Assembly (NCBI RefSeq): GCF_900199375.1
Contig: NZ_LT900217.1
Location: 2,108,001 to 2,172,000, forward strand
DNA length: 64,000 bases
Origin: Gordonibacter urolithinfaciens
GTDB taxonomy: Bacteria; Actinomycetota; Coriobacteriia; Coriobacteriales; Eggerthellaceae
Direction: 5' to 3'
Made by a program: the position numbers and the translations under genes. Positions 16,486 to 20,809 of this stretch are shown one piece after another. Positions within the stretch are counted from its first letter, which is position 1, and each line of letters begins with the position of its first letter. The notes beneath the pieces are model-generated. The model was not told the DNA's origin. It did not search any database and saw nothing but the letters and a program-made list of their open reading frames with translations.

Positions 16486-17355
16486 ATGAAGGAAATTACG
16501 ATTGATGTATGGGCGATAGTGTCTGAACTGATCGAGCGGGTTCCCGGTTTGCTTATAAATCGCGAGGCATTTTTGAGGGATGTATTTCGCGATAAACTTA
16601 GTCCTGATCAGTTGAATAGAGTGGTTGAACTTGGCGATTACGGAGATGTTTCGCTGGATATGCTCGACTCGGCGGCGAATTCTTGCATCAACAAAACGCG
16701 CTTAACCACTTCAGGAGCTTCGTTCGTCGCGGGCTTACCGAGTTCGCTTCCGACGCTTCCCGCCACTGTAACCGCGGACATAACGCAGTCATTCGCTTTT
16801 TATGTTCGCATTGCGCAGCAGCTTTCTTACATATATGGAGAAGCGAACGACTTTACAAAGATGCAAGATGACGACAGGATGACGAAGCTTCTGCTGTACA
16901 TCGGGGCTATGTTCGGCATCGAGGCAGCGTCGCAAGTGCTTGCCTTGATGAGCTATAACGCAGGAAGAATACTTGCCAAGAAATTCGGTCAGGTTGCTGT
17001 AACTAAAGTTCTTAATGGGGTCCCATGGAAAGTGGCGAGAACGATTGCCAAAATGCTCGGGGTCAAGCTGACGAAAGGCGTTGTTCAGAAGGGTATCTCC
17101 AAGGTCGTACCGGTTCTTGGCGGGGTCGTGTCGGGTGCTTTAACTTACGCAACATTCGGTCCGATGGCGAAGAAACTTCAGTGTGCTCTTCGCGATAACC
17201 TTAAAGCATCCGAAGCGGAAATCGAGGAGCTGTACGAAGTTATATCTTCGGAAGACGATATGGATATTGCGATCTCTGTCTGCAGCGATGTTATTGAAAG
17301 CGAGGTGTTGGACCCCGCAGAGTTCAAGGAGGATGGCTCCAAGGAGAAAAGCTAA
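16486..17355 (+). CDS. EcsC-like protein of unknown function, A+T-richer than its surroundings
   Basis: A 289-residue protein. The middle resembles EcsC-family proteins: a Gly/Pro-rich segment (ASFVAGLPSSLPTLPATVTA) followed by an amphipathic 'FAFYVRIAQQLSYIYG' helix. A second glycine-rich amphipathic region (VPVLGGVVSGALTYATFGPM) lies near residue 220, and the C-terminus is acidic. Family function is not established; membrane association is plausible. ATG 16486 follows GAGAAAGG. Codon use is visibly less G+C-biased than in neighbouring genes, and it is next to an IS110 element, so I infer horizontal acquisition. It could be part of a defence or toxin-resistance function, but nothing here shows that. 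Confidence 0.6.
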   Translation: MKEITIDVWAIVSELIERVPGLLINREAFLRDVFRDKLSPDQLNRVVELGDYGDVSLDMLDSAANSCINKTRLTTSGASFVAGLPSSLPTLPATVTADITQSFAFYVRIAQQLSYIYGEANDFTKMQDDDRMTKLLLYIGAMFGIEAASQVLALMSYNAGRILAKKFGQVAVTKVLNGVPWKVARTIAKMLGVKLTKGVVQKGISKVVPVLGGVVSGALTYATFGPMAKKLQCALRDNLKASEAEIEELYEVISSEDDMDIAISVCSDVIESEVLDPAEFKEDGSKEKS

Positions 17356-17443
17356 GCAGGAGGTCACTGATATATCGGGCTCCGCCCACCTTGAAACGCG
17401 AGCGGCTGGTTCTCCCAGTGCTATTCTACTAGGTAGTTTCACT

Positions 17444-17449
17444 TATAAT
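17444..17449 (+). promoter_or_regulatory. -10 element for the bridge-RNA-like transcript
   Basis: TATAAT immediately upstream of the folded RNA segment. The -35 position falls at the element's left boundary, as expected if a full promoter forms only when the two ends join in the excised circle, which is known for IS110-family elements. Confidence 0.55.
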
Positions 17450-17454
17450 CCTCT

Positions 17455-17645
17455 TGCGGAAGCTATGCATGGCTTCCGCAGCTGGTCGTCGCTGGAACCG
17501 GACACCGGCGCAGTGCTAATGCTACCTATAGCTCCCAGTATCATGCCACCGGATCCAGCGGCGCCCGTCCATCGCCGATAAGATTGATGCCGACAGGCTC
17601 CGTAGAATACTGCTCGAGGACAGGCGCCCTGCGACAAGGCCAGCT
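17455..17645 (+). ncRNA. Bridge-RNA-like noncoding RNA of the IS110 element
   Basis: Order of structure matches IS110 bridge RNAs. A 5' hairpin spans 17455-17480 (9-bp stem, loop containing TGCATG). A stem follows (CGCTGGAACCGG, closing with CCGGATCCAGCG near 17550-17561) enclosing a variable internal loop at about 17511-17541. A second loop region at about 17562-17625 is almost identical in the other copy. In the established IS621 model the first loop reads the target and the second the donor. The match of each loop to the left junction (see the element entry) supports this. Ends are estimated from where similarity to the second copy stops. Confidence 0.7.
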
Positions 17646-17669
17646 TCCATTCATCGAGGAAGGGGAACT

Positions 17670-18884
17670 ATGGAGCGGGCGGAGATGGATTACGACGTGT
17701 ATGTCGGCGTGGATGTCGGGAAGACCAAGCATTACGCGGTGGCGCTCGACGGAGCAACGGGCAAGCGGTTGTTTTCCCGACCCTTCGGCCAGGATGAGGC
17801 GAGCATTCGCGAGCTGCTGGAGGATGCGAGCGGCTACGGCAAAGCGCTCGTGACCGTCGACCAATTCGGCAACATCGGACGATTGGTGGTGGCGGTCGGC
17901 AAGGATATGGGATTGGACGTTGCCCATATCACCCCCAAGGACTTTAAAGACATCTCTACGACCTACAAGGAAGGAAAATCGGACGCCAAGGACGCCTTCA
18001 TCATCGCCGACGTGTCCCTCAGCACCCCGAGGCTGATCCGGCCGGTCGGCACGCGCGACGGTGTGATCGCAGAGATCAAAGTCCTCAACTCGCGGCGGGC
18101 GGATATCGTCAAAGAGCGCACGCGCTACTACAACCGCCTGCACGACCTCCTGCTTCAAGCGTCCCCGCCCCTCGAGCAGCTTTTCGAGGGCGAGAAGCTC
18201 CATTCAGGCCTGGCCGTGAAGATGTTCGAACGCTACGGCGGCCCGCGCGGGCTCAAGCGCGCCGGCAAGGCCCGCGTGTCAAAGTGGGCAGGAAGCGTCA
18301 AGTGCCAGAAGAACCGTGGCCCGGCGATGGCGGAAGAGGTATTCGAGGCGCTTGGCACCATGACGGTTGAACTCCCGGCGACCGAGGTCATCGAGATTCA
18401 GATCAAGAAGCTGGCCAGGCGCATCCTCGAGCTCGACCAGGAGGAATCCGAGCTGGACGCCGCCATCGAGGAGCGCGCAGATGCGGTGCCCGAGACGGCG
18501 ATCCTGAAGAGCATTCCCGGCATCGGTCGCGTCCACGGGGCGACGATCGCCGCCGAGATCGGCGACATCAGCCGCTTCCCAGACGCGAACCACCTGGCTT
18601 CCTACGGGGGCATCGCGCCCGTGAAGGAAGAGTCGGGAACGAGCGTCAAGAAGAACAAGCGGAGAAAGAGCGGGAACCGGAGGCTCAAGAACGCGCTCAT
18701 CCAGTCGGCGCAGATGGCGATTCGATTCGATCCCAGATGCAAGGCCTATTACAACAGAAAGCGCGCCGAGGGCTTGAAGCGCAAACAGGCGCTCCGAGCC
18801 CTGGCGCGACGGCGCGTAGACCTCATCTACGCGCTCCTGGCGAACGGCACCTTCTACGAGCCGTCGCATCGCGCAGCAGCCTAG
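17670..18884 (+). CDS. IS110-family transposase (DEDD recombinase)
   Basis: A 404-residue protein. N-terminal RuvC-like domain: the first acidic residue is in YVGVDVGKTKH (D15), and the acidic pair in KSDAKDAFIIAD lies near residue 110. The C-terminal Tnp_20 domain has the family's IPGIGRVHGATIAAEIGD and FASYGGI-like block (LASYGGIAPVKEESG), containing the serine nucleophile region near residue 325. Length and both domains are complete, so it is probably active. ATG 17670 follows GAGGAAGGGG. It works on DNA together with the upstream noncoding RNA. Confidence 0.93.
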   Translation: MERAEMDYDVYVGVDVGKTKHYAVALDGATGKRLFSRPFGQDEASIRELLEDASGYGKALVTVDQFGNIGRLVVAVGKDMGLDVAHITPKDFKDISTTYKEGKSDAKDAFIIADVSLSTPRLIRPVGTRDGVIAEIKVLNSRRADIVKERTRYYNRLHDLLLQASPPLEQLFEGEKLHSGLAVKMFERYGGPRGLKRAGKARVSKWAGSVKCQKNRGPAMAEEVFEALGTMTVELPATEVIEIQIKKLARRILELDQEESELDAAIEERADAVPETAILKSIPGIGRVHGATIAAEIGDISRFPDANHLASYGGIAPVKEESGTSVKKNKRRKSGNRRLKNALIQSAQMAIRFDPRCKAYYNRKRAEGLKRKQALRALARRRVDLIYALLANGTFYEPSHRAAA

Positions 18885-19016
18885 TCCTTTTCCGAAAGCA
18901 GGTCCTTTGCGCTCCTCGTATTATAGAGCATGGGGGGTAGATTTTGCACACCCTGATCCCAGTCGGGGCAACAAGAAAGCCTTTCTTTTCCTCGAGGATC
19001 GAGCGGAAATGTCGCC

Positions 19017-19022
19017 TATAAT
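19017..19022 (+). promoter_or_regulatory. -10 element of the second bridge-RNA-like copy
   Basis: TATAAT at the same position relative to the folded segment as in the first copy (9-14 bases before the first hairpin). No convincing -35. Confidence 0.45.
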
Positions 19023-19030
19023 ATCGATCT

Positions 19031-19220
19031 GGACGGGCTGTGCATGGCTCGTCCGCTGGTCGTCGCTGGAACCGGACACCGGCGTTGCAATATTGCTCTC
19101 CGAGAGCCTAGCAAATCATGCCACCGGTTCCAGCGGCCCCCGTCCATCGCCGATAAGATTGATGCCGACAGGCTCCGTAGAATACTGCTCGAGGACAGGC
19201 GCCACGCGACAAGGCCAGCT
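19031..19220 (+). ncRNA. Second bridge-RNA-like segment, without its own transposase
   Basis: Homologous to 17455-17645 over its whole length. The first hairpin (19031-19054) has a different stem but keeps pairing and the TGCATG loop. The stem CGCTGGAACCGG/CCGGTTCCAGCG is perfect here. The enclosed loop (about 19085-19114) is completely different in sequence from the first copy, while the donor-type loop (19141-19205) is nearly identical. Similarity ends at the same place (CAAGGCCAGCT) in both. No transposase follows, so it is either a relic of a second insertion or an orphan guide that the neighbouring transposase could use. The rest of 18885-19420 holds no gene I can support. Confidence 0.65.
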
Positions 19221-19420
19221 GCTCCGTCTAGGGAGATAAATCAAAGAGTAAGGAAAGCTTCTGACAACGGAGGCTTGGTTGGTTGTGCGCCAAACAGGCT
19301 GGCAGCCGTCTCTTGACCGCAGTTTTCAAGGAATCCACGCCCCGTGATTTGCTTTTATTTCGTTATAGATTGATACTGGTGCGCGAAAACGAACGGCGAT
19401 CGAGCGAGGACGACAGCAGC

Positions 19421-20809
19421 ATGACGGCACAAGAGCTACCGAACGGATTCACCGGGTTCGCGAACCGCAAGCCGGGCTTCGAGCCGGCCAGCGCCAGCGT
19501 GGGGCACACGCCGGTGGGAGGCTACACCACAGGCGGCGGCGCGTCGCTCGCGGGCGTCCCAGCTGGCTACGAGCGGGGCGCGCAGGGGGCGTTCCAGTAT
19601 GCACGCGACCATGCGCGGCCCGACACGGGCGCGGCGAGCTTCGACCCCGACAAGCTGCGCCTCATCCCCGACACCGACCGTCGCTGGGCCTGGACGGAGA
19701 TCGATTTGAACGCTTTGCGCCACAACGTGGCGTCTCTCAAGCGCCACGTGGGACCCGGCGTGCGCGTCATGGCCGTGGTGAAGGCCGACGGCTACGGGCA
19801 CGGTGCGGTGCGCTGCGCGAAGACGGCGCTGAACTCCGGCGCCGAGTATCTGGGCGTGGCCACGGTCAACGAGGCCATCGAGCTGCGCGAGGCACTGGTG
19901 AATGCGCCCATTCTCGTGCTCTCTCAGCCCCCTGACGAGGCCATTCCCCTGCTGCTGGCCTACAAGGTCATGCCGAGCGTCTACACGCCCGACTTCGCCA
20001 TCCGCTACGCCGAGGCGGCCGACGCCTTCGGCATCCGCGCGCCGTACCACCTGGCCGTGAACACGGGCATGAACCGCATCGGCGTGCGGCACGACCAGGT
20101 GGTGGAGTTCCTGTCGCAGGTGAGCTTCCACCGCGCGCTCGACCTGGTGGGCACGTTCACCCACTTCGCCACGGCCGATGCGCCCGAGACGCTGGACTTT
20201 CACATACAGACGAAGCGCTTCCTCGAGGCTATCCAGGGCATGCGCGTGGCCGGCGTCGACCCCGGCATCATCCATGCCGCCAACTCGGCTGCGGCCATCC
20301 GCTATCCCGACGTGCACTTCGATATGGTGCGCCCCGGCATCGCGTTGTACGGCCTGCACCCGTGCCCGGAAACGCGCACGATGATCGACCTCAAGCCCGT
20401 CATGAGCGTGCACGCGCGCGTGACCGATGCGCGGCTCGTTCCCATGAGCGAGGGCGTGAGCTACGGCATGAACTACCGCAGCCCCGGCAGCGTGAAGATA
20501 TGCACCGTGCCCGTGGGCTACGCCGACGGCCTGCGCCGGGGGCTCTCGGGCCGCACGGACTTCATCGTGTCCGGCCAGCGGTTCCGCCAGGTGGGCAACA
20601 TCTGCATGGACCAATGCATGTTCGAGGTGGACATGCGCATCTACGGCACGCGCCGCCGCGTGGACCCGCAGATCGGCGACGAGGTGGTGCTGGTAGGACG
20701 CCAGGGAGACTCGGTGATCACGCTCGACGACATGGCGAACACGCTGGGCACGATCCACTACGAGCTGTCCATCGGGTTCGCGCAGCGCATGCCCAGAGTG
20801 TACGTGTAG
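19421..20809 (+). CDS. alr: Alanine racemase with an unusual N-terminal extension
   Basis: A 462-residue PLP enzyme converting L- to D-alanine for peptidoglycan. The PLP lysine is K121 in VVKADGYGHG. The second catalytic residue is Y348 in VSYGMNYRSPG, followed by the typical VPVGYADGLRRGLSG and GNICMDQCMFEVD. Oddity: about 95 residues precede the usual start (WAWTEIDLNALRHNV), rich in Gly, Ala and Pro and without family similarity. The first plausible ATG is 19421, with a weak ribosome site (GAGG); no better internal start is obvious. The IS110 islet ends about 200 bases upstream, so the promoter region may have been altered by insertion. Confidence 0.92.
   Translation: MTAQELPNGFTGFANRKPGFEPASASVGHTPVGGYTTGGGASLAGVPAGYERGAQGAFQYARDHARPDTGAASFDPDKLRLIPDTDRRWAWTEIDLNALRHNVASLKRHVGPGVRVMAVVKADGYGHGAVRCAKTALNSGAEYLGVATVNEAIELREALVNAPILVLSQPPDEAIPLLLAYKVMPSVYTPDFAIRYAEAADAFGIRAPYHLAVNTGMNRIGVRHDQVVEFLSQVSFHRALDLVGTFTHFATADAPETLDFHIQTKRFLEAIQGMRVAGVDPGIIHAANSAAAIRYPDVHFDMVRPGIALYGLHPCPETRTMIDLKPVMSVHARVTDARLVPMSEGVSYGMNYRSPGSVKICTVPVGYADGLRRGLSGRTDFIVSGQRFRQVGNICMDQCMFEVDMRIYGTRRRVDPQIGDEVVLVGRQGDSVITLDDMANTLGTIHYELSIGFAQRMPRVYV

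Follow-up and report, generated by a model that had tools for sequence, protein, structure and literature searches.

Evidence for an IS110-group element in Gordonibacter urolithinfaciens with two bridge-RNA genes that share a donor loop and differ in the target loop

Introduction

The closest described relatives of the locus reported here are IS621 and other insertion sequences (IS) of the IS110 group. As set out in parts of two papers (PMC11208160, PMC11208158), these elements encode a recombinase with DEDD and Tnp domains and have a bridge RNA upstream of the recombinase gene, with target and donor loops that contain left and right guides, a dinucleotide core, and a promoter of the junction type. 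We analyzed a window of 64,000 nucleotides from G. urolithinfaciens (contig NZ_LT900217.1, positions 2,108,001 to 2,172,000; positions below are counted from the first letter of this whole stretch), which is part of a one-contig genome of 3.29 Mb. Positions 17425-19374 of the window share the features listed above and are, near certainly, one IS110-group element with two bridge-RNA genes, the second of which lies in the right end (RE) and has another target loop. The assignment to the IS110 group is based on the domains, the RNA position, the guides, and the core.

Elements of this group are usually described with one bridge RNA each (there is no formal rule), and a passage of a paper on TIGR-Tas systems refers to the IS110 bridge RNA as "a single two-stem unit" (PMC12045711). 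In the open-access papers searched, preprints not covered, we found no description of a natural IS110 element with two bridge RNAs; the "two bridge RNAs" of one paper are two engineered RNAs per site. A preliminary description of the window, made from its sequence alone, had noticed two bridge-RNA-like segments around one transposase and is revisited here.

Results

Extent of the element

The ends of the element were fixed with the help of two near-identical copies in genome G020 that have different surroundings, a left end reading ...AAGG-AT-TCTACGG and a right end reading ...ATAGGTTG-AT-CCCG. Applied to the window, this end grammar gives AT-TCTAC (17423) as the left end and TATAGATTGAT (19364-19374), followed by ACTGG, as the right end; GATTGATACTGG has a single occurrence in the window with one mismatch allowed. 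The preliminary description had proposed to look for an empty site in relatives. Such a site, an uninterrupted AGTGCTATACTGG in front of alr, is present in each of the four other genomes examined from the host genus, and both RNA segments are inside the element ends. To the left of the element, the DNA is unlike that of these four relatives, and the homology noticed starts at the site itself. Since the right end at 19374 lies beyond the second RNA copy, both RNAs are inside one element with one transposase (Table 1). The region initially outlined, 17416-19220, stops short of the element, and the second copy can no longer be called a relic or an orphan on the grounds that it has no transposase. 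The stretch 17400-19400 contains GATTGAT at three places (17582, 19157, and 19368, the last being the right end itself, 19368-19374) and ATTCTAC at one, 17423. The reverse complement of ATTCTAC is present only in the two donor loops (17602 and 19177), in agreement with the earlier observation that a donor-loop sequence of the first copy is the reverse complement of the first bases inside the element, at its left end (LE). No inverted repeat of at least 12 nucleotides joins the two ends (shorter ones were not searched).

Table 1. Coordinates of the element, its RNAs and guides, and its insertion site in the window
Feature	Position	Strand	Basis or remark
Target-site left half CAGTGCT + AT core (17423-17424)	17416..17424	+	Identical to left target guide 1
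IS110-group element	17425..19374	+	1950 bp, counting one AT core (the right one); end grammar of relatives and uninterrupted site
-10 TATAAT of bridge RNA 1	17444..17449	+	Consensus match only
Bridge RNA 1, in LE	17454..17648	+	117.3 bits, model built without it; fold
Left target guide 1, CAGTGCT, then AA	17511..17519	+	Other aligned members read AT
Right target guide 1, CTCCCAGT + AT	17532..17541	+	Reverse complement AT ACTGGGAG
Left donor guide 1, GATTGAT	17582..17588	+	Same letters as element right end
Right donor guide 1, GTAGAAT	17602..17608	+	Reverse complement of left end ATTCTAC
IS110 transposase, 404 aa	17670..18884	+	DEDD_Tnp_IS110 + Transposase_20
TATAAT ahead of bridge RNA 2	19017..19022	+	Consensus match only
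Bridge RNA 2, in RE	19030..19225	+	119.9 bits, model built without it; fold
Left target guide 2, TTGCAAT + AT	19085..19093	+	
Right target guide 2, CCTAGCAA + AT	19107..19116	+	Reverse complement AT TTGCTAGG
Left donor guide 2, GATTGAT	19157..19163	+	
Right donor guide 2, GTAGAAT	19177..19183	+	
Element right end TATAGATTGAT	19364..19374	+	End grammar; AT core 19373-19374
Target-site right half ACTGG	19375..19379	+	5-base match to right target guide 1; joined to AGTGCTAT in relatives
alr (alanine racemase), behind target promoter	19421..20809	+	Pfam; same arrangement in relatives; start codon picked by eye
Target sequence of RNA 1			CAGTGCTATACTGG
Predicted target sequence of RNA 2			TTGCAATATTTGCTAGG

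The two bridge RNAs

The two segments are linked by two direct repeats, D1 (17540-17645 / 19115-19220; 96% identity) and D2 (17481-17523 / 19055-19097). The copies are identical at 30 of 30 positions over the 5' strand of the long stem and ACACCGG, and at 102 of 106 positions from ATCATGCC to the 3' end, which bears out the near identity of the second loop. The target loop agrees at 16 of 31 positions; the DNA outside the RNAs, which we took as background, is identical at 25 of 53 positions upstream of the -10 and at 29 of 62 downstream. The 5' hairpin had been described as having different stems around a conserved TGCATG loop. Indeed, the hairpins agree at 18 of 27 positions with the loop kept in both. 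Nine pairs of the folded hairpins were compared by eye: four are the same, one is changed on one side, and four are changed on both sides with the pairing kept. Of the 12-bp stems reported for both segments, that of copy 2 is fully paired and that of copy 1 contains a single mismatch.

Both copies fold as a hairpin followed by a target stem-loop and a donor stem-loop, and for copy 1 this fold has a z score of -4.1, with 0 of 200 shuffles as good or better. An alignment of eight family members yielded 35 consensus pairs, 11 of which have at least one change on both sides. A search of the window with Rfam 15 at gathering thresholds gave no match, so models were built from relatives. A model made from five relatives only, with the window excluded to avoid circularity, found copy 1 with 117.3 bits (rough E value of 2.2e-24) and copy 2 with 119.9 bits (rough E value of 5.9e-25). 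As regards the covariance-model check proposed earlier, the result was negative with Rfam and positive for both segments with the model of the relatives. Judged by this independent model, copy 2 is at least as good a bridge RNA as copy 1. A search of the host genome returned the two copies and one 33-nt match, with no further strong copy.

The transposase

The transposase matches PF01548 (E value of 1.9e-34), PF02371 (E value of 4.7e-28), and NF033542 (223 bits, cut-off of 140), as well as IS621 over residues 232-400, and appears intact from its sequence. The six closest relatives that were aligned have transposases with 51-59% identity, each with the RNA a short way upstream of the gene; in one of them, G308, the middle part of the RNA is lost. 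These close relatives were obtained by a separate genome search; a scan of a genome-contig set with the transposase retrieved one locus with 25% identity and no close relative, and a scan of viral contigs gave no match. The host genome contains one other transposase match, with 34% identity. Asp64 (17859-17861) is part of an invariant VDQ motif and is present in 10 of 10 aligned sequences, which would mark a branch with a DDDD active site; its equivalence to Glu60 of IS621 is based on spacing.

Guides and target sites

The donor guides are identical in both RNAs and match the element's own ends. As claimed before, the left junction equals a target-loop sequence, CAGTGCTA being present at 17416 (junction) and at 17511 (target loop of RNA 1). 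RNA 1 fits the present site ahead of alr, CAGTGCT-AT-ACTGG, with 7 of 7 left positions and 5 contiguous right positions, whereas RNA 2 misfits it (2 of 7 left, 0 right). To place these values, a guide table was compiled for six distinct elements with readable ends, RNA 1 included, with letters transcribed by hand; G308 (RNA deleted), G086 and G047 (ends not found), and the distant elements L039, L040, and L044-L047 were left out. The predicted right target matched the real right flank over 4-7 contiguous bases from the core in the six elements, compared with at most 1 in swapped pairs (n = 30). The left flank was readable in four elements, whose left guides matched it at 4, 4, 7, and 7 of the 7 positions; swapped pairs (n = 20) matched at 1.35 positions on average, with a maximum of 4. 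Taken together, the consensus pairs, the model scores, and this guide grammar support the initial reading of the segments as bridge RNAs and its assignment of the donor and target loops.

A separate observation concerns the core guide, which is AA in RNA 1 (17518-17519) and AT in the other seven members of the eight-member alignment; RNA 2 has the canonical AT.

Candidate target of bridge RNA 2

The grammar predicts TTGCAAT-AT-TTGCTAGG as the target of RNA 2. The 15-mer TTGCAATATTTGCTA, cut from 16 letters after the result for the host genome was known, has two exact matches in the 138 family genomes, one in a genome of the same genus (G066) and one in a genome of another genus (G057). With genomes taken to be 2.3 Mb in size, composition predicts 0.03-0.6 exact sites, the value varying with G+C. 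Each of the two sites is situated a short way upstream of an abiEi-abiEii pair (PF13338, PF08843), in the abiE promoter and inside a palindrome seen by eye, and guide 2 matches both promoters at 7 of 7 left positions and 6 contiguous right positions. The AbiEi proteins of the two genomes are only 35% identical. According to a passage of PMC7319586, AbiEi of Streptococcus agalactiae binds inverted repeats in its own promoter, and another source mentions AbiE on conjugative elements (PMC11062541). The abiE operon of G066 adjoins a tRNA-Met gene and a Schlafen-type helicase gene.

With at most three mismatches, the 16-mer TTGCAATATTTGCTAG has 6 sites in the host genome (5 for the control), all with three mismatches and one of them inside copy 2; relatives of the two AbiE pairs were found at none of these six loci. 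Relatives of AbiEi are encoded in 66 plasmid records, and a scan of viral contigs with the AbiEi protein of G066 gave no match. The exact 16-mer GTTGCAATATTTGCTA is present in 45 viral contigs, none of which encodes a relative of these AbiE proteins in the nearby stretch examined.

Occurrence in other genomes

With strict filters, by which weak matches are lost, the RNA model had 13 matches in the family set (8 of 138 genomes) and 15 in a set taken from the class (10 of 396 genomes). Among the matches in both sets, only the host genome has two RNAs in one element. A survey of sequence repeats was based on 87 of 113 transposase matches (30 loci and 57 stretches) and 11 earlier loci, one of which (L045) is also among the 113 tallied. 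Of these 98 loci, 11 without 250 bases on one side were dropped, which left 87 testable loci, several of them copies of one IS. A repeat above 28 bits on both sides of the transposase was asked for, a test by which strongly diverged pairs would be missed. A repeat of bridge-RNA size was seen only at the window locus (214 bits), the next being of 41 bits and 49 nt.

At L160 in genome G250, a 49-nt direct repeat (80%, 41 bits) flanks another IS110 transposase. L042 in genome G308 (approximately 1356-1447) has an intact-looking transposase and a bridge RNA without the part between the left target guide and the donor loop, so that it covers 92 instead of approximately 147 positions. Genome G047 harbors four RNA relatives (L068, L071, L073, and L074; 48 to 97.9 bits) without a neighboring transposase in the stretch read. 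They end at different points before AT-CAG, and two of them stop immediately behind the left donor guide that they contain (AAGGTTGAT), which looks as though it had served as a right end; the best transposase match of this genome is 29% identical and located elsewhere. We had considered these RNAs as free-standing guides and dropped this idea in favor of relics, since they are cut at different points and have lower scores. They are perhaps non-autonomous remains of an IS110 element.

Possible use of the second guide

The element is probably a two-guide element in which both guides work. Both RNAs would be made and would load the same recombinase; guide 1 would have placed the element in the alr promoter, and guide 2 would give this element a further site of entry, most likely in promoters of AbiE type IV toxin-antitoxin operons. 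In a circle, the RE-LE junction would provide RNA 1 with a -35 (TTGATT) from RE at a spacer of 18, by consensus match only, and RNA 2 may arise by read-through from the transposase transcript. For IS621, a passage of PMC11208158 suggests that a synaptic complex takes its target loop from one RNA molecule and its donor loop from a different one; given this and the common donor loop, RNAs 1 and 2 should be interchangeable except for the address. The preliminary description had already raised the possibility of a guide that redirects the intact transposase. This is the reading that we favor, now with abiE promoters as a candidate target; the expression, binding, and use of RNA 2 are inferred.

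A number of results weigh against two working guides. Copy 2 folds only moderately better than shuffles (z score of -2.4; 5 of 200 as good or better), RNA 2 has no good -35 (TCGAGG, spacer of 19), and the left matches of 4 of 7 in two of the four readable elements of the guide table do not exceed the best swapped pair. The host genome, in which the preliminary description had suggested searching for matches to the second target loop, has no site within two mismatches of the 16-mer. With at most one mismatch, the 138 family genomes contain 17 sites, the same number as for the control (the exact count among controls is not given), and the other 15 sites, with one mismatch, have no AbiE relative within the approximately 3 kb examined around each. 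Two plasmid abiE promoters read among the 66 records lack the site, the best match being 9 of 15, and insertion of an element at an abiE promoter was not observed. Finally, the 87 testable loci include no second two-RNA element, so that selection across lineages is not apparent.

Some of these results, namely the single case among the testable loci, the poor -35, and the lack of a good target in the host, would also fit a copy 2 that is the captured relic of a second, differently targeted IS110 copy, whose left end once lay beside or inside RE, whose transposase and ends were lost, and whose bridge-RNA gene is now passively carried and unused. Truncated RNAs without a neighboring transposase do occur, as in G047. 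This possible history, which would include an eroded nested second element, appears unlikely to us. Copy 2 is flanked by neither donor ends nor target-2 halves, which also led us to reject a nested insertion as the present state; it scores as high as copy 1 in the independent model; and large differences are seen only in the target loop and in the hairpin with its largely compensated changes, unlike what decay would produce.

It is similarly improbable that the abiE match of guide 2 is due to chance, in which case guide 2 may function with another target. The equal numbers of sites and control sites, the 45 viral contigs without a relative of these AbiE proteins near the site, the two plasmid promoters, and the number of exact sites expected by composition are all compatible with chance, whereas the two exact sites come from different genera and share one narrow context despite the low identity of their AbiEi proteins. 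Very unlikely, in our view, is a copy 2 that works otherwise: it might be a spare donor-loop RNA, a store from which copy 1 could be re-programmed through recombination, or an RNA that regulates the transposase. The donor half is nearly unchanged and, with loops from separate RNAs as suggested for IS621 (PMC11208158), a lone second donor loop could act, but the target loop is well formed, has an AT core guide, and its predicted site is exact in two abiE promoters.

Insertion site and neighboring DNA

At positions 17416-17424 and 19364-19423, the insertion is seen to split TGCTATACT, which resembles an extended -10 of alr, presumably an important gene. TTGATACT, left by the right end of the element in place of the split -10, may restore a promoter. 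Between a gene for a LuxR-type regulator and the element, positions 16486-17355 contain a reading frame of 289 aa that has no Pfam or NCBIfam match and no match in the other loci examined, including the stretches ahead of alr in the four relatives of the genus.

Discussion

A tentative and rather doubtful extension of the two-guide reading is that guide 1 keeps the element at the conserved alr promoter and guide 2 sends it to AbiE promoters, and that the element is also of an intermediate kind as regards the placement of the RNA in LE or RE. If true, the element would follow a two-pathway (stay or spread) strategy by means of RNA; AbiE operons elsewhere ride on conjugative elements and plasmids. 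In two-pathway transposons such as Tn7, one element has two site choices, one of which is a fixed chromosomal site. The comparison is an analogy only, in that the choice would lie here in two RNAs and not in two proteins. A second RNA with the donor loop kept and the target loop changed also hints that these recombinases may already be multiplexed in nature, a point of relevance to their application as tools.

Compared with IS621, the element has an AT core instead of CT and, by spacing, an Asp in the position of Glu60. TIGR-Tas systems, as portrayed in parts of PMC12045711, also have several dual-guide RNAs per Nop-type protein, and the proteins are stated there to be distantly related; the window has two separate full bridge RNAs and no array, and the Tas model reaches 52.2 bits (cut-off of 100).

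In the IS1111 group, according to parts of PMC11187229 and PMC11208160, the seekRNA or bridge RNA is located in RE. Sub-terminal inverted repeats of 7-17 bp are a further feature of this group. A passage by Durrant et al. infers that the bridge RNA moved between the element ends when IS110 and IS1111 separated (PMC11208160). An RNA copy at both ends has the look of the intermediate that such a move from IS110 to IS1111 would need, a likeness in layout that may be unrelated to that old event. Its copy 2 lies downstream of the transposase, as in IS1111, and its copy 1 upstream, as in IS110.
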